Positions 1 to 44,302 of a DNA stretch of 44,662 nucleotides are shown here, in pieces; positions within the stretch are counted from its first letter, which is position 1; each line of letters starts with the position of its first letter. This stretch comes from a virus. Position numbers and translations under genes: made by a program. The DNA is taken from the IMG/VR virus record IMGVR_UViG_3300027833_000085, positions 1 through 44,662 of that record. The stretch is one strand, 5' to 3'. The notes beneath the pieces are model-generated. The model saw only the letters and a program-made list of their open reading frames with translations. It made no database searches and was not told the origin of the DNA.

Positions 1-92
1 CAAAGTGACCTACAAAGCGTTAGCTTTGACCATTCACCTGATTCAATTGATTTACCATAAAGGTAAAGTTCGTCTTCGTGGTATAAATTCAT
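1..92 (-). CDS. Unknown protein, N-terminal fragment (runs off left edge)
   Basis: Thirty codons are visible from an ATG at 92-90, beginning MNLYHEDELYLYGKSIES; the rest lies outside the window. The start codon overlaps the TGA stop of the upstream minus-strand gene as ATGA (92-89), so the two are probably translationally coupled in one leftward operon. The visible part is acidic and matches no family I recognise. Two perfect stem-loops lie inside it (13-28 and 51-67). Confidence 0.55.
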   Translation of the reverse strand, partial: MNLYHEDELYLYGKSIESGEWSKLTLCRSL

Positions 93-541
93 GCTTTCTT
101 CGTCTTTGCAGGGTTAGGAACTTCCTTTTGGTTGGCAAGGTCGAACATCGCATCTTCGTCACGCTGGACACATCTGTCCATCGCTCTTACACTTGCAAGA
201 GTACCGTCGTCATGCTCACTGTCTGTGAATATCTCAGCAATGTCGAAAACAACAGCACCGTCGGAATCAATCCAAGTCCCTATACTTACAGTATAGTCAG
301 CACCTTCGCCTTGGCAAATCTTAGTCGCTTGCTCCATGTATCGCATCCATACAGAACGGAACAGATTCGGAGTGCAAATTTCCTTTGGAAGCTTGACTTC
401 CTCCCATAAACCACCAACTACATAACCTTCGGTTGGTATTTCATACCAAAAAGCATCTTTTGTGGTCACGGTCGATCCCCCGTCCATCATGGTCTTGCCA
501 TAAGCCAAGCGGCACGCCGCATCAAATATTAGTCTATTCAT
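89..541 (-). CDS. Hypothetical 150-aa protein of the leftward gene cluster
   Basis: The reading frame opens at a TTG at 574, but the ATG at 541 (MNRLIFDAACRL) is the more natural start. The product is soluble, with no signal peptide or membrane helix, and rich in Asp/Glu and aromatic residues; its C-terminus is basic (NPAKTKKA). I do not recognise a family. It is coupled by an ATGA overlap to the next gene to the left. The coding DNA contains perfect hairpins such as 280-296 (7-bp stem, TAC loop) and 433-449 (7-bp stem, TTC loop). Its position in a cluster of small genes divergent from the late genes suggests an early host-takeover role, which is inference only. Confidence 0.6.
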   Translation of the reverse strand: MNRLIFDAACRLAYGKTMMDGGSTVTTKDAFWYEIPTEGYVVGGLWEEVKLPKEICTPNLFRSVWMRYMEQATKICQGEGADYTVSIGTWIDSDGAVVFDIAEIFTDSEHDDGTLASVRAMDRCVQRDEDAMFDLANQKEVPNPAKTKKA

Positions 542-637
542 CGTTTTTGAATTGATTCTGCTACTATGTAGCAAATTGCTAGTCCGTATACGGACATGAT
601 TATTGTGAAAATTAACATCTAGTTTAAGTTTATACTC

Positions 638-808
638 TTATAGAGTATTTACGAGGTCTTCCATTCTCATCTGCTCATCGCAAGTGAGTGCATCCCATTG
701 GGATGTGTTACGGACTACGTCCATACCAAAGAATTGAACATCGTTGAACAAAGCGTTCATAGACGCTTGCTTGTTTCTCTTAGGAGAATAGGTGATTGTG
801 CCGTGCAT
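638..808 (-). CDS. Small 56-aa hypothetical protein
   Basis: An ATG at 808 opens a 56-codon frame beginning MHGTITYSPKRNKQASMN and ending at a TAA at 640-638. The protein is hydrophilic with one Cys and no membrane helix. Support comes from its strand, shared with its neighbours, the tight packing between flanking genes, and the upstream motif TCTAAATCTCTAAGCC-ATG, which resembles leaders of three other genes in the cluster. A 6-bp hairpin (632-648) covers the stop codon. Function unknown. Confidence 0.55.
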   Translation of the reverse strand: MHGTITYSPKRNKQASMNALFNDVQFFGMDVVRNTSQWDALTCDEQMRMEDLVNTL

Positions 809-910
809 GGCTTAGAGATTTAGAATGCGATAGCTGAATTGCCATCGGCGATACAAAGGTAAGACTTAACTTTCGAAAAACCAAATTTAATTTTATACCC
901 TTTAGGGTAA

Positions 911-1165
911 TTAGTCAATGACATCGTATGTCTCCCATGTAGGAGAGTCATCACGCCAACACACCACGGTGTGCGATTCAAGCGCAGGCTCGAACACGTG
1001 TTCCGAAGATTCTACTTCTTTGAAGTAGCAAACATCATCTCCCTCTTTGAGGATGATTTCCAAAGCCCAGTTCGCGGCAGTCTCCGCATCTAGGAAGTTA
1101 CGCTTACAGCGAAACTCAGCCCCGCTATCGAACGGGAATACAAAAGCAAAAATTGGTTGATTCAT
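911..1165 (-). CDS. Hypothetical 84-aa acidic protein
   Basis: The product begins MNQPIFAFVFPF and is acidic, with three Cys residues. There is no signal peptide or membrane helix, and I recognise no family. The start ATG is preceded directly by an inverted repeat (TAAATC-TAA-GATTTA on the minus strand) whose last A is the A of ATG. An almost identical repeat precedes the next gene. Internal hairpins include 960-973, the perfect 12-bp palindrome at 992-1003, and 1012-1028. A further 5-bp hairpin (896-909) lies just after the stop codon. Confidence 0.6.
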   Translation of the reverse strand: MNQPIFAFVFPFDSGAEFRCKRNFLDAETAANWALEIILKEGDDVCYFKEVESSEHVFEPALESHTVVCWRDDSPTWETYDVID

Positions 1166-1176
1166 AAATCTTAGAT

Positions 1177-1482
1177 TTAAAGTGAAAATTCAGTAACTAC
1201 TTCGTCAGTCAAACTGACCTTAAGACCTAGCTTCGCTAGACCTTTGCAGGCTTCTTGAACATAGTTCAAGTATTCGATCGCACACCATGGCTCGTCTATG
1301 ACGTCACCTACCTTGCACAGACCATCTTCGATGTCTCCGATTAAGTCATTGATTGCTTCGCAATCAGATTCAGTATGGTTCCTTTTAGTTACTTTGTAAC
1401 TAGTTAGCCAATACTTGTCGAGAAGCTTGTGTTCGCTCCTACTGTTGTTAGAGTAAAACTCTAATGCATCAAAATCAATCAT
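1177..1482 (-). CDS. Hypothetical 101-aa protein
   Basis: The product begins MIDFDALEFYSNNSRSEHK and is a small acidic soluble protein with three Cys; no family is recognised. Only 11 bases separate its stop from the next gene, so the two are probably co-transcribed. A minus-strand hairpin TAAATC-TAAA-GATTTA (1482-1497) ends on the start codon. Six further perfect stem-loops lie within the frame at 1204, 1227, 1254, 1350, 1386 and 1448, the densest stretch in the window. That a reading frame survives there implies either a strong nucleic-acid constraint or a tolerant protein. Confidence 0.6.
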   Translation of the reverse strand: MIDFDALEFYSNNSRSEHKLLDKYWLTSYKVTKRNHTESDCEAINDLIGDIEDGLCKVGDVIDEPWCAIEYLNYVQEACKGLAKLGLKVSLTDEVVTEFSL

Positions 1483-1530
1483 AAATCTTTAGATTTAAAA
1501 GGTTAAAATAATAAGTTAATAACGTAGTTA

Positions 1531-2115
1531 TTAGAATGGAGAGTCTCCGAAATCAGGAGCGCCGCTCATCAAAGCTTCAGCTTCAAGGCGGGATTGCTCT
1601 TTTTCTTGTTCAATTCGTCTTCGACGAACAGCGTCTTGAGGAGATTCGCCGTCAAGAAGTGTAAACACTTCCAAAATCGCTTTCTTCCTAGCCTTTGGCT
1701 CTGGAACTAAAACCTCTTTACGAGGTTCTAAAAACATAGCTTGACTACCGTCAAGAGCGACAGCTTTCGTCTTTTTGGCTTCGCCAACTCCGATAGCTTC
1801 TTTAGCTTGAGTTAACTCAAGACCATCAGCTGACGTCCTTTTAGGACGGCGAACCGCTTTCGACTTAGACTTCGTCTTAGTAGCCTTCGGCTTTGGAGAC
1901 TTCGTCTTGGAAGCCTTTGGCTTAGTAGCCTTCGGCTTCTTGGCAGTTTTCACTTCCTTCGGAATCTCGAAGGACTCCAAAAAGTTGTTCAATGATGCTA
2001 AAGCATCAAAGGCTGCTTCTTGCTTTGCAAGAGACGGAGAGTAGACCAAGCTGTTTACAGCTTTCTTGAGGTCTTTCAGCATAGCTGATTTGTTTTCGAT
2101 TAATGTCTTCGACAT
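1531..2115 (-). CDS. Lys/Ala/Pro-rich protein with SSB-like C-terminal tip
   Basis: The 194-aa product has three parts. Residues 1-52 form a probable helical N-terminus. Residues 53-93 are extremely Lys/Pro/Ala/Thr-rich (repeats such as KPKATKPKASKTK), like histone H1 tails and other nonspecific nucleic-acid binders. The C-terminal part holds a charged helix and ends in APDFGDSPF. Bacterial single-stranded DNA-binding proteins end in an acidic tip finishing in Pro-Phe, usually DDDIPF, which recruits DNA-repair and replication enzymes; the tail seen here resembles it. No OB fold is visible. The Lys-rich part is encoded by repeated CTTCGGC-type hairpins. A role in handling host or phage DNA is inferred. 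Confidence 0.6.
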   Translation of the reverse strand: MSKTLIENKSAMLKDLKKAVNSLVYSPSLAKQEAAFDALASLNNFLESFEIPKEVKTAKKPKATKPKASKTKSPKPKATKTKSKSKAVRRPKRTSADGLELTQAKEAIGVGEAKKTKAVALDGSQAMFLEPRKEVLVPEPKARKKAILEVFTLLDGESPQDAVRRRRIEQEKEQSRLEAEALMSGAPDFGDSPF

Positions 2116-2174
2116 TGTAAAGAGATTTAGATTTTCCTAAGCTAGTCGACTTCCAAAACCAGTTTAAGAGATTA

Positions 2175-2218
2175 AGAGTAAGAGAAGAAGTCGTAAGACT
2201 CTCTTCTTCTTTTACTCT
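2175..2218 (+). other. Long imperfect hairpin (16-bp stem)
   Basis: AGAGTAAGAGAAGAAG pairs with CTTCTTCTTTTACTCT with one non-Watson-Crick position. Read as plus-strand RNA that position is a G-U wobble; read as minus-strand RNA it is a C-A mismatch. This slightly favours a plus-strand RNA structure. It lies just upstream of the leftward gene that starts at 2115. Confidence 0.5.
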
Positions 2219-2338
2219 ATCTCTATCCTTTTTACTGTGCCAATCAGCTTGCTGATTTTCGTAGGGTAAACACTAACCGCATTGAATCTTCTACGAAGAT
2301 CGCATGGTTAGAGGATTTTCACCGTCTCAAAACCTCAG

Positions 2339-2346
2339 CAAAACTA
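2339..2346 (-). promoter_or_regulatory. Possible leftward promoter -7 box (TAGTTTTG)
   Basis: Minus-strand TAGTTTTG fits the Bacteroidota -7 consensus TAnnTTTG. It would start a transcript near 2331 with a leader of about 215 nt, rich in hairpins, in front of the gene at 2115. No clear -33 element is seen, so this is a weak candidate. Confidence 0.25.
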
Positions 2347-2630
2347 AGCTAAACCTATGGTTTAAAACGGTGTTAAGTATCCCTTCCTAAAGGAAGGCTT
2401 CAAGTCAAACCAAAGGTTTGGGGGGAGATTGTCCTGACTCCACTTTCAACTCTGCAAGAGTTGGTTCCTCTCAGAATGACTAAGCAGAGCTTAGGGTTAT
2501 CCTCCATCTTGCTTAACTCCAAGGAGTTAAAAGCTGAAAAGGTACACCGAAAGGCTGTTTAAAGCCCCCTACGGGGTCTTTAGATTCTGTTTCGGAACAA
2601 GATATGATTCAATTCTATATATACATAATC

Positions 2631-2658
2631 CCCATACTCTGTATTACTGGGCTTTTTT
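2631..2658 (+). terminator. Terminator-like hairpin at the end of the hairpin-rich region
   Basis: CCC(C) and GGG flank an inner ATAC-TCT-GTAT hairpin, followed by TTTTTT on the plus strand. It would stop a rightward transcript, yet no rightward gene lies to its left in the window. That fits either a plus-strand noncoding RNA or insulation of the leftward region. Confidence 0.4.
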
Positions 2659-2779
2659 GCGTTTGGCCACGGGGTTTGCGTATCGATATCTGATCATAGG
2701 CTGTCATTAAGGCTTTGAGTAGTCGAAAAAAATTTATACACATATGCATTTGGGGCTTGACTTTGTAAGTTTTTTGTTG

Positions 2780-2787
2780 TACCTTCG
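2780..2787 (+). promoter_or_regulatory. Possible rightward promoter (TACCTTCG with upstream TTGACTTTG)
   Basis: TACCTTCG differs at one position from TAnnTTTG and has a TTGACTTTG element about 20 nt upstream. A transcript from here would run about 165 nt through a noncoding leader before the gene at 2957, which has its own closer box. Confidence 0.3.
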
Positions 2788-10729: not shown

Positions 10730-10918
10730 ATGCCAGACTTATACTGTCCCGATTGCGGAAAAGAAAAGTACGAGAAGAGCCTTACTATGCGAGTTAAGGA
10801 CGACAAAGCTTATTACGTCGAGGGGACTTGCGAATGCGGATCCCAGATGAAGCTTACCAACCCTAAGAAGGGTGTTCCTAGTTTAGGGCGTATGAATAAA
10901 TTAGGCAGTAGCTATTAA
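10730..10918 (+). CDS. 62-aa zinc-ribbon protein
   Basis: The protein begins MPDLYCPDCGKEKYEK. A CPDC knuckle (residues 6-9) and a CEC pair (34-36) form a four-Cys zinc ribbon with a beta hairpin between. Its TAA overlaps the ATG of the large terminase as TAATG, so it is coupled to it. A role in DNA packaging or in DNA or protein binding next to the terminase is inferred from position. Confidence 0.65.
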   Translation: MPDLYCPDCGKEKYEKSLTMRVKDDKAYYVEGTCECGSQMKLTNPKKGVPSLGRMNKLGSSY

Positions 10919-13044
10919 TGTCCATCCTTATAGACATAGAAGGTTATGAAGATCAAGGGATTAAAATCGACCCTAACGGTGCAGAGGGAGAGGTTATCGA
11001 ACTACATGGGCTTCTCGTTGTCCTTCCAAAAAAACCACCCCGATCGAAGATTCTCTTCCATGATCGGCCAAAGCACTTGCAGCTGTGGACAAGGATACCA
11101 ATGCCTGAGGAAATGCAAAGGGTTCGAAGTATGGATGAGTGGCACGAAAAACCGAGTGAGTTCCGTAAGAAGTTTTCTACTTACATCGAACAAGAGTTTC
11201 AGCGTCGCCGTGACGGTGTTTGGTTTTACAATAATGGCATCCCTACGTATATTACAGGGCGGCACTATATGTTTCTACAATGGTCTAAAATCGATGTCGG
11301 ATATCCTCAGTTCTTACAATTCCAAAGAGAGATCTTTCTCCACATGCTGGCGTGTGAGTCTGACCCTCGTTGTTTCGGTCAGCTTTATACTAAGTGTCGC
11401 CGTTCTGGGTATACTAATGTCTGTAGCGCTGTACTTGTTGACGAGGCTAGTCAAGTTAAAGAGAAACTTCTTGGTATTCAGTCGAAGACTGGTAAGGACG
11501 CTCAGGAAAACATTTTCATGAAGAAGGTGGTCTCTATCTTTAGAGGCTACCCGTTTTTCTTTAAACCTATCCAAGACGGTACTACAAACCCTCGTATGGA
11601 GCTTGCTTTTAGAGAACCTTCTAAGCGTATCACCAAAAACAATAAGACATCTTATAAAGGAGACGCCCTTAACAGTACTATTAACTGGAAGAACACCACG
11701 AACAACGCTTATGACGGGGAGAAGCTACATATGTTGTACCTCGATGAGGCGGGTAAGTGGGAGAAGCCTACCGATATCCGTGAGGCGTGGCGTGTAGAAA
11801 GGACTTGCCTAATTGTAGGTAAACGTATAGTAGGTAAAGCCCTGGTGGGTAGTACGGTAAATCCAATGAGTAAAGGAGGGGATGAATATAAAGATTTATG
11901 GGATGATTCTGACCCGTCTCAGAGAAACGACAACGGACGGACGCGCTCTGGGATGTATAGGATCTTTATACCAGCTTATGAGGCGTTAGAAGGGTTCTTT
12001 GATAAGCACGGCAATGCGGTTATAGAGGATCCAGAAAACCCTGTAGAAGGAATTGACGGAGAAGAAATTGACCAGGGCAGTAAGACTTATTTAAAAAACG
12101 ACCGCAAATCCTTTAAAGACGATCCCTCGGAACTCAATGAGGTTATTAGGCAGTTCCCCTTTACTGAAGACGAGGCATTTAGAGACAGCATAGAGGGGAG
12201 TCTATTTAATATAGGTAAGATCTATCAGCAGATAGAGTTTAATGACGACCTATACCCTAATCCTGTCGTACAAGGCAACTTTGTGTGGCGAAAGAAAGAT
12301 GAAGAAGTTGTGTTTTCTCCAGACCCTAACGGAAGGTTCCGCGTTTCCTGGATGCCTCCTGATCATTTAAGAAACAATAAAGCAGACGAAAGAGGCAAAA
12401 AAGTTGCCCCCAATAAACATATCGGTGTCGGTGGAGTTGACTCGTATGACTTAGACGCTACGGTAGATGGCAGGGGGTCTAAAGGAGCCCTTCATATGTA
12501 CAATAAGTTTAATATGGATGTCCCGTCTAACATGTTTGTAGTGGAGTACGCTTCTCGTCCAGACTTAGCAAGTATTTTCTACGAAGACGTTCTCATGTGC
12601 TCTTTCTTTTATGGATATCCTTTACTTGTAGAGAATAACAAATATGGTATCGTCAGGTACTTTGAAGCAAGAGGTTATGACGGTTATCTAATGGATAGGC
12701 CAGGTCACCTTAAAACTGGGAACTCTTCTGTAAACGTTAGAACTAAAGGGATCCCGTCTAACTCTCAAGACGTTATTCAATCTCACGCTCAGGCAATCGA
12801 GGCTTACATTTATGATCATGTAGGTATAAAGCCAGAATCTGCTGAGTTCGGTAACATGTACTTTAACAGGACTTTAGAGGATTGGATTGGCTACAAGATA
12901 GACAAGAGAACTAAGTTTGACTTGACTATTAGTTCTGGACTGGCGTTACTTGGCGCTCAAAAAACCAAGAAAGAAAAACCTCAATCAGACTTTAACGAGA
13001 AACAATTTTTTAGGACTTTTAAGTCAAAAGCTTGGCACTCCTAG
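10918..13044 (+). CDS. terL: Terminase large subunit (ATPase and nuclease)
   Basis: This 708-aa product is the DNA-packaging motor. The ATPase part shows a Walker A-like CRRSGYT (160-166), Walker B MLYLDE (272-277, D276 and catalytic E277), and a coupling motif GSTVN (311-315). The nuclease part starts with the RNase H-type strand GVGGVDSYD, with acidic residues D508 and D511. Two oddities: the Walker A lysine is replaced by Tyr165, and the protein is longer than most terminases (450-600 aa). Length and sequence style are close to crAss-like phage terminases. The family acts at the portal vertex of the prohead. Start chosen by the TAATG overlap. Confidence 0.9.
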   Translation: MSILIDIEGYEDQGIKIDPNGAEGEVIELHGLLVVLPKKPPRSKILFHDRPKHLQLWTRIPMPEEMQRVRSMDEWHEKPSEFRKKFSTYIEQEFQRRRDGVWFYNNGIPTYITGRHYMFLQWSKIDVGYPQFLQFQREIFLHMLACESDPRCFGQLYTKCRRSGYTNVCSAVLVDEASQVKEKLLGIQSKTGKDAQENIFMKKVVSIFRGYPFFFKPIQDGTTNPRMELAFREPSKRITKNNKTSYKGDALNSTINWKNTTNNAYDGEKLHMLYLDEAGKWEKPTDIREAWRVERTCLIVGKRIVGKALVGSTVNPMSKGGDEYKDLWDDSDPSQRNDNGRTRSGMYRIFIPAYEALEGFFDKHGNAVIEDPENPVEGIDGEEIDQGSKTYLKNDRKSFKDDPSELNEVIRQFPFTEDEAFRDSIEGSLFNIGKIYQQIEFNDDLYPNPVVQGNFVWRKKDEEVVFSPDPNGRFRVSWMPPDHLRNNKADERGKKVAPNKHIGVGGVDSYDLDATVDGRGSKGALHMYNKFNMDVPSNMFVVEYASRPDLASIFYEDVLMCSFFYGYPLLVENNKYGIVRYFEARGYDGYLMDRPGHLKTGNSSVNVRTKGIPSNSQDVIQSHAQAIEAYIYDHVGIKPESAEFGNMYFNRTLEDWIGYKIDKRTKFDLTISSGLALLGAQKTKKEKPQSDFNEKQFFRTFKSKAWHS

Positions 13045-13088: not shown

Positions 13089-15539
13089 ATGTACAACGAT
13101 AAAGGTAAAAGTGCTTCTGGCTTCCCCGATCCGCTTGCTTCGGCACAAGAAAAACAAGGGAAGGAGTATGGCCTTAATTATGCGAAAGCCATCTACAACC
13201 AGTGGGGAAAGATTGATCAGGAGGGGTCTTTATACAGTAAGCGATCTAAGGTTTTTGAACGTAACAGAGATTATGCTAACGGCACCCAAGACACTAAGAT
13301 TTATAAGCAACTTTTAAATACTCTAGATCCAAACAACGGAGACGGGAGTATGCTTAATATTGATTTCACCCCAGTTCCTATCTTACCGAAGTTTGTTCGA
13401 ATTGTAGTAAATAAAATTCTTTCTTTAAACCCATACCCTAACTTAGAAGCTATAGACCCTTTGTCTTCTTCTGAGAAAGACCTAGAAAAAAAGAAAATCG
13501 AACTCTCGGTAAAAGCCAAGGGTCCTTTACAGAATATAGAAAAGTCGTTAGGGGTTCAGATTTCAGGAGATTCTAATAAGATTCCAGAAACTCTAGAAGA
13601 AGCTGAGATTTTCTTAGAGAATAACATTAAGTCTTCTGGCGAGATCGCCGCTCAGATTGCGACAAACATGACGCTTTCTTGGAACGACTTTAACGATAGT
13701 ATTTACCGTCGCTGCGTCAACGATATGGCAATCTTAGGCATGGCTGTTATTAAGCGTTCTAACGATCCGTCTCAAGGAATTAAAACGGATTATGTGGATC
13801 CTGTTAACTTTATACACAGCCACACAGAAGACCCTGCTTTTTCTGATTTGGTTTATGCGGGCCACGTAAAAAGTATTCCTATTCAAGAGTTAAAGCGTAT
13901 TGCTTCTGACCAGTTTACAGAAGAAGAATATAAGGATATCGCTAAAAAGGCGCAAAAAAAGAATGGCCTTGATGCTTCAAAGCTGAGTCAGTCTTCTTAT
14001 AACGCTTACACTAATACCTCTAGCTATGGCTATGATGAGTACATGGTTGAAGTTCTTGACTTTGAGTTTATCGGAGTAGATTGCATCTACTTTGAAGATA
14101 AAGAAAGCAAGCACGGTAATAAGGGGTTTTATATGAAGGGAGACAATTACAAAACTCCTGCTAATTCCATTTATCAAAGGTCTGTAGAGAAGCTTGAAAA
14201 TTCAGTTGTTTACGAAGGAACGTATGTCTTAGGCACGGACTATCTATTTAATTATGGTCGTCAGAAAAACATACCTAAGAACGTTCATGATATTTCTAGG
14301 GCTACTCTTTCATATTCTTCGTGCGCTACGAATCTCATGAAAATGATGCCTAAGTCTATGGTGGATAGCTGTATCGGGTTTGCTGATCAGTTACAAATAA
14401 CTCACCTTAAGCTTCAGCAGTCTATAGCGAAAGCAAAGCCTGACGGCATTATCATTGATATTGAAGGTTTGGAGAATGTTCAGCTAGGTAAAGGCGGCGA
14501 ACTTCAGCCCTTGGAGTTGCATGATATCTACGAGCAGACGGGTGTATTCTATTACAGAAGCAAGAACCCAGAGGGAGGTTTTCAAAACCCACCTATCCGT
14601 GAGATAGGCAACAGTATAAGGAATGTAAACGAGCTTATCGGACTCTACAATCATTACTTGAATATGATTCGAGATGCTACAGGAATCAACGAGGCTATGG
14701 ATGCTTCATCTCCTAAGTCGGACGCGCTTGTCGGTGTTCAGCAACAAGCCTTGGCTGCTGCTAATAACGCCATATACGATATCACGAACTCGTCTATGGT
14801 TCTTTACAAGAAGGTCTGCCAAGACATTGTAAAGTGTTTGCAGGTTATTCATCCTGACTCAGTTCTATACAAGATGTATGCGAATGCAATCGGTAAAGAA
14901 AATATGAGCGTACTGTCTTCCTTTAGAGATTTGTCGATGTACAACTTTGGAGTTAGAGTAGTTAAGGAAATGGAAGAAGTGGATAAGCAATATTTAGAGC
15001 AGAACATTCAGATTTCTTTATCTCAGAAAGAACTTGATTTAGAGGACGCTATCGCTATTCGTCAACTTAAAGACGTTAATCAAGCTGAGAGGCTGTTGGT
15101 TATCAGGAGAAAGAAGAGAATGGCATCAAACCAGCAGATGGCTATGCAGAATTCGCAACAGCAAGCTCAGATTCAACAGCAGTCTGCTCAGGCGACTTCT
15201 CAAGCCAGGATGCAAGAGCTTCAGATGCAGGCTCAACTTAAAGCTCAGGAGATGCAACTTAACATGAAGTTAGAGTCGCAATTAGAGGAGGTTAAGCATC
15301 AGTTCAAGAAAGAAATTGAGATGATAAAAGCGTCAGCTGTTCTGGGTATTAAAACTGACGACAAAGAGTTTAAAGAAAAGCTTGAGGTGTTAAAAGAAGA
15401 TCGTAAGGATGATCGAGTAAAAAAGCAGGCGGTTGAGCAGAGTAAGTTGCTTTCTCAGAGACAAGAAAAAAGAGGCGAGCTTACAGATACGGACTCACAA
15501 CCTACAGGTATGGATTCACAACTATTAGGAGGACTATAA
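13089..15539 (+). CDS. Portal protein
   Basis: This 816-aa protein follows the large terminase. It has the mixed alpha/beta body of portals (for instance NDMAILGMAVIKRSNDPSQG with YVDPVNFI, the wing/stem area) and the conserved late segment GNSIRNVNELIGLYNHYLNMIRDATGIN split around residues 510-540. Residues about 677-770 are a Gln/Met-rich coiled coil (QQAQIQQQSAQATSQ), as in portals of crAss-like and other large podoviruses, where the C-terminus reaches into the capsid. As a dodecamer it would form the DNA channel and bind the terminase and ring proteins. Confidence 0.8.
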   Translation: MYNDKGKSASGFPDPLASAQEKQGKEYGLNYAKAIYNQWGKIDQEGSLYSKRSKVFERNRDYANGTQDTKIYKQLLNTLDPNNGDGSMLNIDFTPVPILPKFVRIVVNKILSLNPYPNLEAIDPLSSSEKDLEKKKIELSVKAKGPLQNIEKSLGVQISGDSNKIPETLEEAEIFLENNIKSSGEIAAQIATNMTLSWNDFNDSIYRRCVNDMAILGMAVIKRSNDPSQGIKTDYVDPVNFIHSHTEDPAFSDLVYAGHVKSIPIQELKRIASDQFTEEEYKDIAKKAQKKNGLDASKLSQSSYNAYTNTSSYGYDEYMVEVLDFEFIGVDCIYFEDKESKHGNKGFYMKGDNYKTPANSIYQRSVEKLENSVVYEGTYVLGTDYLFNYGRQKNIPKNVHDISRATLSYSSCATNLMKMMPKSMVDSCIGFADQLQITHLKLQQSIAKAKPDGIIIDIEGLENVQLGKGGELQPLELHDIYEQTGVFYYRSKNPEGGFQNPPIREIGNSIRNVNELIGLYNHYLNMIRDATGINEAMDASSPKSDALVGVQQQALAAANNAIYDITNSSMVLYKKVCQDIVKCLQVIHPDSVLYKMYANAIGKENMSVLSSFRDLSMYNFGVRVVKEMEEVDKQYLEQNIQISLSQKELDLEDAIAIRQLKDVNQAERLLVIRRKKRMASNQQMAMQNSQQQAQIQQQSAQATSQARMQELQMQAQLKAQEMQLNMKLESQLEEVKHQFKKEIEMIKASAVLGIKTDDKEFKEKLEVLKEDRKDDRVKKQAVEQSKLLSQRQEKRGELTDTDSQPTGMDSQLLGGL

Positions 15540-26295: not shown

Positions 26296-27122
26296 TGGCT
26301 AGAAATACAGTACCGCTAAATCAGGTTATAAACGACTTCATTCTTTCTTTTGCCGAAGATGATTTCGCAGCAAATGCTAGCGACAATCAGATTAGAACTT
26401 ACGCTCTTCGAGGGGTAAGGGACATGGGGTTCGATGTTTCGAAAAAGATTAGATCTTTAAAACTAGCAATCAACTCAGCCAATAACACTGTTGAGCTTCC
26501 AGACGATTATGTAGATTGGAGCAAGATAGGGGTTGTAGGTACCGATGGTTTAGTTTACGTTTTAGGAGAGAACAAGAACATTAATTACTCCCAAGCATAC
26601 GATACTGGAGCGGGAGTTAAAGCGCCTACTTCTGCGACGGCTAATGACAGCGACAACGACGGTGTGTACGACCGACTTGACGACAAGACCTCTAACGAAG
26701 GTGTAGGCATACAGTCAGGGTTTAACTCAACTATCTTCAGGGATTACTACTACGGGGCTCAAAATGCTGTCTACGGGGCTGGAGGGGGTCGATATAGAGG
26801 GGAGTTCAGGGTTAACCTTGATCAGAACAGAATTGAAATCAGTCCTATGAGCGGTGTAGGGGAAGTGGTTATTGAATATGTAGCGGACGAAGCTCGATCT
26901 AAGAACCCGTCAATCCATGTATACTTAGAGGAAGCTTTGATGGCTTATATGTATTACAGGATTATCGAGAGAAAATCGTCTGTCCCTGCAAACGAAAAGG
27001 CACGAGCTAGAACGGAATACTATAACGAGCTACGCAAGGGGAACGCTCGAATGAAGTCCTTCACTAAAGAAGAGGCTCTTAAGACAATTAGAAAGAATTT
27101 CAAACAGTCACCTAAGTTCTAA
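26295..27122 (+). CDS. Ring/tail-tubular-like protein 2 with calcium-type loop
   Basis: The 275-aa product begins MARNTVPLNQVINDFILS. Its beta-rich core has an insertion with DSDNDGVYD (118-126), a thrombospondin type 3-like calcium loop. The C-terminal part (EEALMAYMYYRIIERKSSVPANEK) is helical, as in tail-tube gatekeepers. It is coupled upstream and downstream by TAATG. With the 25546 product it probably builds the collar between portal and muzzle. Confidence 0.55.
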   Translation: MARNTVPLNQVINDFILSFAEDDFAANASDNQIRTYALRGVRDMGFDVSKKIRSLKLAINSANNTVELPDDYVDWSKIGVVGTDGLVYVLGENKNINYSQAYDTGAGVKAPTSATANDSDNDGVYDRLDDKTSNEGVGIQSGFNSTIFRDYYYGAQNAVYGAGGGRYRGEFRVNLDQNRIEISPMSGVGEVVIEYVADEARSKNPSIHVYLEEALMAYMYYRIIERKSSVPANEKARARTEYYNELRKGNARMKSFTKEEALKTIRKNFKQSPKF

Positions 27123-30100
27123 TGGCGATTGACAAGATAAAGCTTAGACACCTCGCTAAGGATAAAGATGTGAGGCTTTTCCAGGAAGGCGATATGCTTG
27201 ACGCTTTGAATATTAGCGTAGACGCAAACAGCGAATCTTCTGGCGACTTAGTCAAAAATATTAAGTCCACTCTGAAGGGTACAGCCGCGACCGCTTCGGA
27301 TCAGCTTCCAAATGAAAATTGTAGGGTTGTAGGTAGCGTATCTGACGATGCTAACGGAAAGGTTTACTTTTTTGTTTGGTCTGCGACAACAAGTAATCAC
27401 GGCATATATCAGTACGACGCTGCTTTAGGAACTTATAAAGTTGTTTTAAAGTCTTCTGTTTTGGGCTTTAGTGAATATGGTTTTGTTAAAGCAGATTTAA
27501 TTAACGGTGAATTTCAGAAAGACGAGGTATCACAAACTATCGTTTATTTTACGGACGGGGTAAAGCCTCCTCGTAAGATCAATGTAGATAGAGCTTTTGC
27601 TACTGCGTTAGGTAATTATTCTAACAGGGAGCTTGAAGAGTTTTTATCTGTCATTAAAAGCCCCTCGCTCTTCCCCCCTACAGTTTCTTTGGCTACAGAT
27701 ACTAGCAGAAAAAGGAACAACCTATACGGCTCTGTCTATCAGTTTGCTGTACAGTACGTGTATAAGGATGGAGAGTCCTCTGCTTTATCTCCTCACTCTA
27801 AAGTTGTATACCCTAGATACATGTCCCTTCAGGGTGTCGTTGATTCTGCCATAGATGCCGATGACGTTAACGCTGAGAATGTAGCGTTTGTGAACACAAA
27901 ATGGAGGAGTTTACCTCCTACTCTTGACGAATTCCGAAAGGAGGTTTCTAAAATTAGAATATTGGGGCGAACATTAAATTCAAACCCATTTTTTATCGTT
28001 GACGAGTTCGACCCTAACATAGATGTAGTCAGGAACGGCACAACGCTGTATAGTACTTCTAGCGGGGTTTATAAGTTTTATAACGATGGACTTTACTTGT
28101 ACGAACAACCCAACGTAACGGACAAGGTTTACGATGACGTCCCTCAAACTGCCGTAGGTCAAACGATCGCGGGCAACAGACTTATGTACTCTAACGTTAA
28201 GGCTGGTTATCCGAACGTAAATGTAAGGGCTAATTTAACGGTAGCATACGCTCAAGAGCCTAGTGTCAATTTAATCGACGCGCTTAGTTCCTCGAACTTC
28301 CTTACACATGAGCAAAATATCACAGCTAATTCTCCTGATGGCTTTTTAAGGTTTGATTTTAACGGGCTATTTCCAAACGGCGCTACAACGATAGGTGCGG
28401 GCTTACAAGTAAGCTTTAGCTTTGAGTACTTACCTACTTCTTTTAATCAATGGGGGTATTACAATCAGAGTGGTAGCACTGAAGATGCCCCTATTTTAAA
28501 AGTGAACTGGGAAGATGAAGACGGGGCTGCTCAAAACACTTATATAGGCCAGGCTGAAGACAGTCAGGAAATAACGATCTACGGTGAACAAGGTACTTTT
28601 GCTAATCCAGGAGACTCAAGAGGGGCTATTGACTTTGGCATAGACTCTTCTCAGCAGGAAAGCAATATGTCTTGGCAAACTTTAGACGTTGTCTTTGTCA
28701 CTGAAGAGGTGATGACGAAGGACAATTTTATGGCGAAAATGTCAGGACTTGTGAGAGATCAACTTTTAAGTTACTCATTTGACTCTTCCTTATCCGCTTC
28801 GACAACAGATACTATTGCTTGGCAACTTAGAGATGGTGCAGGCGCTTTAGCTTACGAGCTCGAAACCCAAAGGCTAGACTTCGACATAAGGTTTGACGTT
28901 GTAAGCGCTTCTGGGAATATAACACTAAAGCCTGTTGCTGGAAACTACTTTATCCCAAGCGGCAACCTTGCTGATGATGGAAATCTTAACTCGTCAACAG
29001 AGAAAACAAGAATTAGAACCGTCTCCAATGGGGTAGCTGGCGGATACCTAAGTGGCGTTTTTAACGGGTTAGCGCAGTACTCTTTCTTTACTAGCGGCAC
29101 TTCCATCCCGCGAGAATTGAATGGGATTCCAGAAACGGGGATAGATGATGAGTGGGATGACTATGATTATTCTTACGATGGCACTACAATAACCAATCAA
29201 GAGAATGGAGCTCGCATACCCTCTCTTTCGTCTGTACAGGCTTTTTCTAGAAGAACATTTAAATCTGGGTGTTCTCATAAGTTTGGTATTGTCTACTTCG
29301 ATAGACACGGAAGACCAGGATATGTTAACGACTTAGGAAGTGTTGAAGTAAAACCTTTTGGCGATTCGGCTAGGACTTTCGATGTTGGCGGCTCTCCCAC
29401 AGCCCATGAAGGTCCCTGTACAATTTTAGTAGATATGCTTTCGTCGCCGCCGACCTGGGCTTCTACATATCAGATTGTCTACTCAGACATGCAAACATGG
29501 GAGAAGTTTGAATCTTTTACTGTAGGTGGAGCTTGGTTTAAAAGTGTTTTAGAAAACACAGCAAATAGTACAAACGAATATTATACCGACACTAAAAAAA
29601 TCTACGTTAGTTTCAATACTTTAGCTGAGTTTCAATCGGGCAAAGGCGCTTTAAAGGACTACGCTTACACTCCTGGAGATAAGCTTAGGATTATAAGCTA
29701 TAAAGATGGAACAACGTCTGCTTTAAGTTACGGGAACAACCTTGAATTTGACGTAATAGGATATGAAACAGTAGTTACTGACCTAGATCCTGACACCAAT
29801 GCCCCAACGGAAATACACACAAATCACGTAGGTAAGTTTTTAGTTTTGTCTCCTGTAGGAGGTCAGCCCGTTACTCACTTTGATCCAGGCACAGATGGAG
29901 ATTTTTGGAATCACGAAGTTTTAGTAGAAATCCTTACCCCAAGAAAGACACCTCCAGAAGAAGTGTTTTATGAAATTGGAGAGTCAAGAAAGATATTAGG
30001 GCCAAGGGAGTTGTCGGATCTTTCGAACAATACCCATAACGACGGAGATCCAATTTCTTTAACCGAGGGCAGCGTATATTATGGCTCTAGATCAGTTGTG

Positions 30101-31711
30101 ATTCCGCCCATTCTCAATGATGGAAATGGCGATCCTAATACCTTTTGGACCTTTACAAATATAGAGCTTTTTGTATTTGGGGTTAGGAATATTGAATCTA
30201 TGGACGCTTCAGACTTCGTGCCTTCAAGGTGTTGGAGTAAAGGGCGAGCTCATGTAAAGTATGATAAAGCCGCTACGGTAGATTACTACAATAGAATTAC
30301 TTATAGCGAAGAATACGGAGATGATATCGGAGACATCACTTTCTCTAGTTTTAATCCAGGGGCTTTTTCTTATAAGAACATGCCTAAGCGGTACGGGGCT
30401 ATAAACTATATCGGTAACGTAAATCAAAACCTTGTTTCTCTTCAAGAGAATAAGCTGTCTCTTGTGCCTGTAAATAGAAACGTCATCGAATATGCCGACT
30501 CTACTTCTAACGTCACAGCTAGCAAAGAGGTTTTAGGTACTCATCAAGAAGCTAATGGAGACTTTGGAATTGGAAGCGACCCTTCCTCAGCTTTAATTAG
30601 AGACGGTATCGTTTTCTTTGTTGACAGATCTCGTCAAAAGATTATCGCTTCTGGGGGGACTGAAATGAAGGTTATTTCAGATCTAGATATGTCTTCTTTC
30701 TTTGAGGCGCAGATGGACAGCCTAGCAAGCATTGCTAACGGAGGCAGGATTGTCAGCGGGTTTGACCCTCAAGAAAAAATGTACTACGTAACCTTTGAAG
30801 GAGTTGGTACGACGGGGTATTCTCTTCCTAGAAAGAAATGGATTAGCCGATATAGCTTTACTCCTTCTAACTACGTAAGTATAGACAACTCTATGATTTC
30901 TGGCTTTAGAAAAGCCATTGGTGACCCTCCCGTTAATTATCTGTTTCATAAACATAGCGCAGGATCGTCAAGAAACAATTTTTACGGCAACGGATACCCT
31001 TCTGAAGTTCAGGTAGTTTCTAAAATCTCTCCATCTGAAGTTAAAGTATTTAATGCTTTGTCTTATGAAGGCAATAGCGCTGACTGGACTGTAGATGATG
31101 CTGTATTAACCGACTTACATCAAGAGTCTGGTCTTATATCTTCTTTTAAAGAAAAGGAAGGGGCTTACTATGCTTCAATGCCTAGGGTAGTTGGAGGCAC
31201 GAAAATTCCCGTTAATGGATCTACTAATGGTGGCACGAGTCAATATTTATTGCTAGGAAGAGTTTCTAGTTACGAGGTTTCAGGCACTGGGCATATCGTT
31301 ACACTTGACAATAGACTATCCAGAATCCCTATGCCTTCTGGGACCCCTTTAGTATCTTTTGTATCTGGATCAAGCGAAACTATATACGGTCCTGATGAGT
31401 TGTTAGCTTTGGGGAGTAATAACGGAACTGTCGCTGCTACGATGTCTAGCTACGACCTTGACGCTAACACGATCACAATAAGCAACTCCAGTGAGTGGCC
31501 CGTTGTTTCGGGAAATAATGCTTTTCAAGATAACAACAACAACGGCAAACCTCTTTACTTGGTTTTAAACGCAGAAGCAAACGGAGACCCCGTTAGAGGC
31601 CGATGGGCTAAGATCCGACTAACTAACGTCGGCGCAGGTCCTCAAGAGCTATACTGTATTAACACTCACATATCTAAGTCTAAGACGCATCATGTCTTAG
31701 GACAGGAATAA
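27122..31711 (+). CDS. 1529-aa tail muzzle/stabilisation-type protein
   Basis: The N-terminus (RLFQEGDMLDALNISVD, then DLVKNIKSTLKGT and GSVSDDANGKVYFFVW) matches the style of Bacteroidota phage stabilisation/muzzle proteins, with beta-propeller-like repeats of VYFFVWS and IVYFTDG type. The length is within what is seen for the muzzle of crAss-like phages. It has many Ig-like or propeller strands and no transmembrane helix. It follows the two ring genes directly, as expected for the distal short tail. The protein probably forms the nozzle through which DNA and cargo pass. Assignment by N-terminal style, size and order. Confidence 0.6.
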   Translation: MAIDKIKLRHLAKDKDVRLFQEGDMLDALNISVDANSESSGDLVKNIKSTLKGTAATASDQLPNENCRVVGSVSDDANGKVYFFVWSATTSNHGIYQYDAALGTYKVVLKSSVLGFSEYGFVKADLINGEFQKDEVSQTIVYFTDGVKPPRKINVDRAFATALGNYSNRELEEFLSVIKSPSLFPPTVSLATDTSRKRNNLYGSVYQFAVQYVYKDGESSALSPHSKVVYPRYMSLQGVVDSAIDADDVNAENVAFVNTKWRSLPPTLDEFRKEVSKIRILGRTLNSNPFFIVDEFDPNIDVVRNGTTLYSTSSGVYKFYNDGLYLYEQPNVTDKVYDDVPQTAVGQTIAGNRLMYSNVKAGYPNVNVRANLTVAYAQEPSVNLIDALSSSNFLTHEQNITANSPDGFLRFDFNGLFPNGATTIGAGLQVSFSFEYLPTSFNQWGYYNQSGSTEDAPILKVNWEDEDGAAQNTYIGQAEDSQEITIYGEQGTFANPGDSRGAIDFGIDSSQQESNMSWQTLDVVFVTEEVMTKDNFMAKMSGLVRDQLLSYSFDSSLSASTTDTIAWQLRDGAGALAYELETQRLDFDIRFDVVSASGNITLKPVAGNYFIPSGNLADDGNLNSSTEKTRIRTVSNGVAGGYLSGVFNGLAQYSFFTSGTSIPRELNGIPETGIDDEWDDYDYSYDGTTITNQENGARIPSLSSVQAFSRRTFKSGCSHKFGIVYFDRHGRPGYVNDLGSVEVKPFGDSARTFDVGGSPTAHEGPCTILVDMLSSPPTWASTYQIVYSDMQTWEKFESFTVGGAWFKSVLENTANSTNEYYTDTKKIYVSFNTLAEFQSGKGALKDYAYTPGDKLRIISYKDGTTSALSYGNNLEFDVIGYETVVTDLDPDTNAPTEIHTNHVGKFLVLSPVGGQPVTHFDPGTDGDFWNHEVLVEILTPRKTPPEEVFYEIGESRKILGPRELSDLSNNTHNDGDPISLTEGSVYYGSRSVVIPPILNDGNGDPNTFWTFTNIELFVFGVRNIESMDASDFVPSRCWSKGRAHVKYDKAATVDYYNRITYSEEYGDDIGDITFSSFNPGAFSYKNMPKRYGAINYIGNVNQNLVSLQENKLSLVPVNRNVIEYADSTSNVTASKEVLGTHQEANGDFGIGSDPSSALIRDGIVFFVDRSRQKIIASGGTEMKVISDLDMSSFFEAQMDSLASIANGGRIVSGFDPQEKMYYVTFEGVGTTGYSLPRKKWISRYSFTPSNYVSIDNSMISGFRKAIGDPPVNYLFHKHSAGSSRNNFYGNGYPSEVQVVSKISPSEVKVFNALSYEGNSADWTVDDAVLTDLHQESGLISSFKEKEGAYYASMPRVVGGTKIPVNGSTNGGTSQYLLLGRVSSYEVSGTGHIVTLDNRLSRIPMPSGTPLVSFVSGSSETIYGPDELLALGSNNGTVAATMSSYDLDANTITISNSSEWPVVSGNNAFQDNNNNGKPLYLVLNAEANGDPVRGRWAKIRLTNVGAGPQELYCINTHISKSKTHHVLGQE

Positions 31712-42751: not shown

Positions 42752-43175
42752 AAAGAAAATCAGAGATACTAAGCTAGGGGTATGGTTAAAGGCCAACGCC
42801 CCTGGCGTTCTTTCTACTGTAGGAGATTTACTTCCTGACAGTGGCGCTCTTGGCGTTGTAAAGAACCTACTTAATAAAGAGCCGAACGTAGATCCTGAAG
42901 CGGCTAGAGCGGCAGTTCAAGCTGAGATCGAGTATCAGAATAACGTATCCCGTAGGTGGGAGGCTGATATGTCTAGCGACGTTAAGCTCGCTAAGCTGAT
43001 TCGTCCATCCGTTCTGATCGTGCTTATGGTTTTCTTTATGGCTATCATGGTGTGGGACGGCCTAGACGAAACGTTTATGCCTAGAGAGAGTTATATCTCT
43101 TTACTAGAGATCCTTATGCTTACTGTGTTCGGAGCTTATTTCGCTGGAAGAACGATTGAAAAAACTAGAAAATGA
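42741..43175 (+). CDS. Holin of the 3-TM gene-transfer-release type
   Basis: A GTG at 42741 starts 144 aa. The N-terminal 75 residues are cytoplasmic, then the family hallmark RRWEADMSSDVKLAKLIRP is followed by hydrophobic helices (SVLIVLMVFFMAIMVW; LLEILMLTVFGAYFAG). This pattern matches the 3-TM holin family first named in gene-transfer agents. Holins pierce the inner membrane at a set time so that lysis enzymes reach the wall. It is coupled by ATGA to the secreted protease that follows. Confidence 0.7.
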   Translation: MESKKKIRDTKLGVWLKANAPGVLSTVGDLLPDSGALGVVKNLLNKEPNVDPEAARAAVQAEIEYQNNVSRRWEADMSSDVKLAKLIRPSVLIVLMVFFMAIMVWDGLDETFMPRESYISLLEILMLTVFGAYFAGRTIEKTRK

Positions 43176-44302
43176 AACTAAGCCTCATCCCCTTACTGCT
43201 TCTGCCTGTCATGGGCATGGGTCAAGATTTTTGTGCCACAGAGTACGACGCTAAAGCGGTTCAACCAAGCCAAGTTGGATTTCAGCGCACAACTTACGAG
43301 TGGAGGACAATTCCAGTAGTGGTGCATATAATTTACTCAGACAGTCTAGGAGGTTGGTTTAGCGAGCAGTACGTAGAGGAGGCCATCGAAGATTTAGACG
43401 CGGATATGGAGGAAGCTATGATCGACATAGAGCTTATTCATATAGGATACCAGGACCTGGAAGAGTACGCTTGGTACGATAATTACGTAACAGGACAGTC
43501 TAGCGGGAACAATGAGTGGTGCTTCCCTAATTTCGGAACACAAAACACCGTAATGGCTATTGATCAGTGGTTCCCTGATTATGACCCCGATTACTATTGC
43601 AACATATATGTTATGCCTAAAATATGCGGAGGCATATTGGGGTGGTCTTATGTTACGGTAACAGGCACAAACGCCAGAGATGGCATATGGCTTAGGTCAG
43701 ATATTTTTGGGCTTGATAGCCCTCATCCTAGAAACAACGAGAATAAAGTATTGACGCATGAGATGGGGCATTATTGTGGGCTTCATCACACTTTTATGTC
43801 TGTAGCCAATTGCGGTGACGATGACGGGCTGCCGTGCGACGTATGGGGTGACTTTGTGTGTGACACACCTCCGACAAAGGCTCAATGGGAATGCGACCCT
43901 CCTATGTGTCCTGAGTATATATACGACTATACCGCCGACAACCACATGGATTATTATCCAGACTCTTGTAGACAGCATTTTACTCCAGGACAAATAGATA
44001 GAATGCATACCATGCTAGAGTTCCAAAGAGGAGGCTTGTTTGGTGATGATGTATTTTGTTTTGGTGATGTCAATTTAGACCACATCGTAGGGAGCGCAGA
44101 CTTGCTCGCTGCGTTGACCTGCTTTGGCATACCTGGATGTCTAACGGGTGATCTTGATCACAACGGTATCGTTACCTTTTTAGATATAGCGATGCTTCTC
44201 TCTAGGTACGGGGATTATTGCCCAGGGTACGAGCCTGACAACCTGTACAGGGAAGGTTCTCAAACGAAGAAAGGGGCCGAAGCCCCCTTCCGTTTAAGGT
44301 AA
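43172..44302 (+). CDS. Secreted M43-type metalloprotease with dockerin-like repeats
   Basis: Residues 1-18 form a signal peptide (MKLSLIPLLLLPVMGMGQ). The zinc site HEMGHYCGLHH (H196, E197, H200, G203, H206) and the Met-turn NHMDYY (M259) with a following FTPGQ are those of M43 (pappalysin/cytophagalysin) peptidases. Two EF-hand-like dockerin loops lie at 298-311 (GDVNLDHIVGSADL) and 326-339 (GDLDHNGIVTFLDI). Family enzymes are secreted by Bacteroidota. Finding one in a phage and coupled to the holin is odd. It may degrade host envelope or S-layer proteins at release, or confer an advantage on infected cells. The 3-prime end lies in a terminator hairpin. Confidence 0.85.
   Translation: MKLSLIPLLLLPVMGMGQDFCATEYDAKAVQPSQVGFQRTTYEWRTIPVVVHIIYSDSLGGWFSEQYVEEAIEDLDADMEEAMIDIELIHIGYQDLEEYAWYDNYVTGQSSGNNEWCFPNFGTQNTVMAIDQWFPDYDPDYYCNIYVMPKICGGILGWSYVTVTGTNARDGIWLRSDIFGLDSPHPRNNENKVLTHEMGHYCGLHHTFMSVANCGDDDGLPCDVWGDFVCDTPPTKAQWECDPPMCPEYIYDYTADNHMDYYPDSCRQHFTPGQIDRMHTMLEFQRGGLFGDDVFCFGDVNLDHIVGSADLLAALTCFGIPGCLTGDLDHNGIVTFLDIAMLLSRYGDYCPGYEPDNLYREGSQTKKGAEAPFRLR
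44262..44295. terminator. Bidirectional terminator between convergent genes
   Basis: AAACG and GAAAGGGGCC pair with the matching arms up to CCGTTT, with a GAA/TTC loop. The stem is inside the last codons of the protease gene, so its final residues are fixed by the hairpin. It would stop both the rightward protease transcript and the leftward reductase transcript. Confidence 0.65.

Follow-up and report, generated by a model that had tools for sequence, protein, structure and literature searches.

In phage T4, intercistronic C(UUCG)G mRNA hairpins place many small, stable RNA tetraloop hairpins between genes. Multi-hairpin single-strand origins (sso and the filamentous phage minus-strand origin) are conserved non-coding elements of 100–300 nt, whose hairpins cluster near a replication site and are active in single-stranded DNA. 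The early promoters of the virion RNA polymerase (vRNAP) of phage N4 (Schitoviridae) have a stem of 5–7 bp and a 3-nt loop with a sheared G:A pair (GNA); their stem bases can be exchanged if pairing is kept, and in vivo the hairpins are extruded by DNA supercoiled to physiological density (PMC4496689). When closed by a C–G pair, the d(GNA) triloop corresponds in DNA to the GNRA tetraloop of RNA (PMC5815330).

The window analysed here is an IMG/VR virus record of 44,662 bp and a fragment of a podovirus-like phage, the early region of which is dense with small hairpins (Table 1). These resemble the N4 promoters in location and geometry, with triloop stems mostly of 6–7 bp and GNA loops in 47% of triloops. 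Whereas N4 has three sites, a conserved sequence and a dedicated polymerase, there are dozens of hairpins here, with unrelated stems, variable loops and unconserved flanks, and no such polymerase was found. GNA triloops and C–G closing pairs are enriched over background, as in stable d(C–GNA–G) mini-hairpins; those are known as isolated motifs, but here they occur in a genomic array under selection. To our knowledge, such mini-hairpins have not been described as a selected genomic array. As in T4, one phage carries many small stable hairpins, but here they are triloops inside coding sequence and UUCG is not enriched. The clustering near a possible replication site recalls single-strand origins, but these arrays span 1–2.7 kb, are partly coding and are not conserved in sequence. 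No comparable array was found in the open literature.

Table 1 Features of the window
Feature	Position	Strand	Details
Hairpin-dense zone	1–2,580	.	38 perfect hairpins, stems 6–8 bp, loops 2–5 nt, 22 triloops
Leftward gene, 161 aa from TTG or 150 aa from ATG	89–574	-	Weak match to phrog_17808
Small leftward gene, 56 aa	638–808	-	
Small leftward gene, 84 aa	911–1,165	-	Hairpins inside and at start codon (1,165–1,179); product 53–94% identical in relatives
Small leftward gene, 101 aa	1,177–1,482	-	Hairpins inside and at start codon (1,482–1,497)
Example hairpin TGATTGC-TTC-GCAATCA	1,350–1,366	.	C-GAA-G triloop on the minus strand
First leftward gene, Lys/Ala/Pro/Ser-rich basic protein, 194 aa	1,531–2,115	-	Hairpins within codons
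Example hairpin TTCGTC-TTC-GACGAA	1,614–1,628	.	Exact scan
Non-coding leader of leftward unit	2,116–2,618	-	8 isolated mini-hairpins
Longer imperfect stem just upstream of first gene	2,166–2,226	-	From sequence; also in relatives (alignment L024/L035)
Leader mini-hairpins, examples	2,242–2,257; 2,286–2,300; 2,350–2,364; 2,382–2,397; 2,406–2,420; 2,447–2,463; 2,480–2,494; 2,513–2,530		
Conserved single-copy motif TAATACAGAGTATGGGGATTATGTATAT	2,619–2,646	-	1 match in window, 0 expected; hairpin zone starts here
Bacteroidetes-type promoter-like sequence TTGACTTTG...TACCTTCG	2,757–2,787	+	Faces late genes; conserved in relatives
Large terminase	10,918–13,044		
Portal	13,089–15,539		
Muzzle-like protein	27,122–31,711		
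Giant virion protein, LPD38, 2,770 aa	34,439–42,751		

The nearest annotated relatives are a Manatee Spring podovirus and phages of Flavobacterium, Maribacter and Cellulophaga, all with terminase identity below 50%. Between the virion genes and a ribonucleotide reductase gene lies a gene for a secreted-looking metallopeptidase (43172–44302), the homologue of which in the related genome G002 matches Peptidase_M43 and a dockerin-like repeat.

The first-pass annotation of this DNA had reported at least 34 perfect hairpins in the first 2.6 kb, with triloops dominating and every stem different. An exact scan (stem of at least 6 bp, loop of 2–5 nt) bears this out, with 38 hairpins in 1–2620 against 52 across the other 42 kb. 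Markov models of order 1–3 built from the zone predict 2.8–3.1 hairpins and reach a maximum of 8–10 over 300 runs, and 2,620-bp stretches elsewhere in the record hold a mean of 3.1 and a maximum of 7. The annotation had also proposed comparisons with codon-preserving shuffles and with the rest of the genome. Protein-preserving codon shuffles of the five leftward genes yield 2.79 hairpins on average (maximum 8, n = 1000) against 20 observed, and outside 1–2620 hairpin density is at background. Together, the Markov, codon-shuffle and same-genome controls rule out chance or base composition as the cause. Insertion of a repeat family is likewise ruled out, as every stem is different and no flank is shared.

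The excess falls mostly on loops of 2–3 nt, with stems of 6–9 bp, and is slight at 4–5 nt. Triloops with stems of 6–7 bp number 20 against 0.7 expected in the zone, 2-nt loops with stems of 7–8 bp are also enriched, and loops of 7 nt or longer show no enrichment. Spacing has no obvious regularity (median gap, 27 nt). The right edge of the zone, which the annotation had placed near 2530–2650, is real; it lies at about 2,530–2,620, at the conserved motif. The hairpins do disregard gene borders, as had been claimed, yet the array stays within a single transcription unit, comprising the leftward early genes and their leader. On the other side of the motif, the sequence at 2757–2787 reads as a putative promoter and marks the divergent, hairpin-free side. 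The left edge of the zone is cut by the contig end. Eight other contigs also end inside the hairpin zone (L020, L050, L056, L087, L090, L106, L110 and L111), perhaps owing to microdiversity or sequencing difficulty there.

Relatives were gathered by terminase and early-gene searches of viral contigs. A dense zone occurs at the same place in at least 27 distinct contigs, the window included; all array-bearing sequences are metagenomic, and marine Bacteroidetes are the suspected hosts. When relatives are aligned on the motif, hairpin density is near zero upstream, apart from one conserved hairpin 200–300 bp away. It rises abruptly at the motif, stays at 1–3 per 100 bp over the next 1.3 kb downstream, with a peak of 2–3, and is back at background by about 2.7 kb. 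Hairpins of at least 5 bp take up about 39% of the first kilobase. Individual arrays contain 15–40 hairpins over 1–2.7 kb, with stems of 6–8 bp and loops of 2–3 nt. In one short contig (L190) the hairpins lie upstream of the motif instead, with a density of 12.6 per kb across 397 bp.

Family members differ in hairpin density, from 0 to about 24 per kb, and the trait is scattered patchily when set against terminase identity: G022 (70%) has an array and G018 (82%) lacks one. G018 and two further close relatives (G013 and G015) have the same motif without hairpins, so the array is not essential to the role of the motif. Its absence from close relatives says that the array would modulate, rather than define, the control site. 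No hairpin zone was found in Flavobacterium elemoF (first 50 kb), Maribacter Panino, Cellulophaga phi38:1 and phi13:2, Calle_1 or record MW202828, and the zone DNA has no similarity in the phage collection searched. In another relative (G016:C1:26692-28822), the terminase large subunit gene is split between two frames, and a short overlapping match contains an in-frame TGA; an intron, a frameshift or an assembly error may underlie this.

Comparison of the arrays reveals constraint on pairing. Stems change at 0.031 per site against 0.065 in their surroundings, and at 0.062 against 0.146 at greater distance, whereas loops change as fast as the surroundings or faster. With duplicates removed, unique stem-pair changes comprise 230 double Watson–Crick changes and 106 single breaks (23 to G.U, 22 to A.C and 61 to other mismatches). 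Relative to the control, double changes occur 5.3 times as often, and single changes to G.U, A.C and other mismatches each about 0.1 times as often; related sequences make these events non-independent, and control pairs were drawn from the same sequences. At inner pairs of an extended set, 315 double changes stand against 39 single changes. Because compensatory Watson–Crick double changes far exceed broken pairs, the alignments show pairing to be kept by selection across coding and non-coding DNA, with almost no constraint on sequence. The annotation's view that the nucleic acid rather than the protein is constrained is thus strongly supported, and the covariation that it had suggested seeking in related phages is observed. 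In the basic protein of the first leftward gene and its homologues, the codons for KPKA-type repeats (AAGCCNAAGGCTT) form hairpins, and the low complexity of the protein may therefore be moulded by the array.

The zone begins at the motif in most relatives. The motif (AAYACAGANNNNGGGGATTM) is also conserved in family members with few or no hairpins, and turns up at about 90 further unique sites in viral contigs (L144–L246) besides the window; in several members it is followed by a CACACACGCGCACGCACACC-like stretch. It is likely to be an important cis element, and we regard it as a putative control site, either a promoter start or an origin element. A DnaA-box-like consensus (TGTGNATAA) lies within 150 bp upstream of it in 12 of 85 regions (0.004 expected per region), although these sites are confined to some members, which are related to each other. 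Two of the 85 regions carry two consensus boxes. Tandem boxes lie about 50–75 bp upstream of the motif in L095 and at -72 to -59 in L161 and L214. The related genome G001 encodes an HTH protein that, on sequence inspection, resembles the DnaA C-terminal domain, along with an annealing protein and a primase-helicase. Given the DnaA-box-like sequences and this set of proteins, a replication origin at the motif is plausible.

Whether the hairpins fold as DNA or as RNA can be approached through their loops and mismatches. The closing pair is C–G or T–A in 211 of 232 unique triloops (91%), against 54% of background hairpins; this rule is not reproduced by standard DNA nearest-neighbour energy tables, which counts against the DNA reading. 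GNA loops make up 47% of triloops against 7% of background triloop hairpins. An RNA role, in which 5' stem-loops of the early transcript obstruct RNases, Rho or antisense RNAs or adjust translation, would account for a zone that has the motif as its boundary, is contained, leader and all, within a single transcription unit and has hairpins at start codons. RNA folding gives a z-score of -3.75 in the leader and of -5.66 in the first gene; DNA-fold z-scores in the zone are -5.2 to -5.7, with -5.2 and -5.5 on the two strands of the leader. A static count of seven-pair hairpins on the sense strand gives 46 G.U against 25 A.C (19 and 21 expected), an excess that fits RNA or one particular DNA strand. 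An early redundant count had also hinted at sense-strand tolerance of G.U, but this vanished in the comparative test after duplicates were removed: G.U is as disfavoured as A.C (ratio 1.11, CI 0.55–2.28). Changed inner pairs include 6 G.U against 315 double changes, compared with 313 against 1130 in phage tRNA stems (badly paired tRNAs left out). Neither GNRA tetraloops nor UNCG loops are enriched, and the hairpin excess drops sharply once loops exceed 3 nt. GNA loops are about as common on the antisense strand (51) as on the sense strand (59), and no Rfam family was matched, with one chance-level match far below the gathering score. We therefore consider an RNA function rather unlikely. DNA is favoured, at roughly twice the likelihood of RNA, because G.U is tolerated no better than A.C in the comparative test, because 2–3-nt loops, C–G or T–A closing pairs and GNA triloops are enriched and the RNA tetraloops are not, because GNA loops are about equal on both strands, and because the geometry is that of N4 promoter hairpins, which extrude from supercoiled DNA in vivo. 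That the folded molecule is DNA, single-stranded or underwound, is supported but not proven. The annotation had offered folded single-stranded DNA or RNA as one of four meanings; loop chemistry and the scarcity of wobble pairs make single-stranded or underwound DNA the best supported of the four. Its alternative of early mRNA protection has become less likely, and retains some sense-strand G.U in the static count.

The remaining explanations differ in whether the hairpins need a function or a partner protein. Fold-back template switching near an origin, which the annotation had listed, could make and perfect short palindromes without function, and would agree with the patchy occurrence and with the excess of double changes over single breaks even at 90% identity or more. 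Of 56 changed 2-nt loops, 27 went from AA to TT, which could reflect inversion or a loop preference. However, copying alone does not predict that stems evolve more slowly than their surroundings, only 4 of 120 changed triloops are exact inversions, and hairpins are gained and lost without overwriting of one arm, arm changes being split as by chance. A template-switch birth is thus unsupported, and the process is an improbable source of the array; the transition/transversion ratio of double changes did not discriminate. A phage or host protein that recognizes DNA hairpin geometry rather than sequence, as a packaging, ejection or protection signal, would explain the strict length window (about 15–20 nt), the loops free in sequence and the fixed closing pair, but it seems slightly less probable still, as no gene cleanly tracks the trait among the genomes compared. 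A Lys-rich first-gene family occurs in 6 of the 8 hairpin-positive genomes, but G005 has it as well, and hairpin-free relatives carry similar basic first genes. Least probable by some way is that the hairpins are N4-like promoters used by a virion RNA polymerase. The short stems, 3-nt GNA loops and early location suit it, as does the encoded giant virion protein, but no flank or loop sequence is conserved around the hairpins, there are dozens rather than three, and both orientations are alike. For the giant protein the only matches were to LPD38 and PHROGs, with none in the PDB, and no RNA polymerase was recognized in the genome by family, motif or PDB match; a PF00940 search gave no match, but its controls were silent too. 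Neither the hairpin-binding protein nor the polymerase suggested by the annotation was found.

Our preferred reading, held tentatively and at slightly less than even confidence, is that a selected array of DNA-type mini-hairpins flanks the early control site on one side and aids its strand opening. We infer a role in strand separation as follows. When replication initiation, an R-loop or transcription-driven negative supercoiling opens the early control region, the strands adjoining the motif would snap into mini-hairpins. Once folded, these could store negative twist and hinder both re-annealing and the binding of single-strand proteins, thereby helping strand separation to spread leftward. 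The fading hairpin density would match the dropping chance of open DNA with distance from the motif. With the same reservation, the array may represent a new phage element: a kilobase-scale, sequence-independent set of extrudable DNA mini-hairpins that runs through the leader and the codons of early genes alike and is selected to control strand opening at the early control site.

A recent survey of inverted repeats across the tree of life set a minimum arm length of 10 bp (PMC13155455) and would miss such arrays, so others may have been overlooked. In these phages, selection shapes about 1 kb or more of early DNA for folding, in coding and non-coding sequence alike. The patchy occurrence among close relatives provides natural pairs with and without the array. 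If the hairpins act as DNA, they would argue clearly, on evolutionary grounds, that short genomic hairpins can be functional, a question open since the work on N4 promoters.
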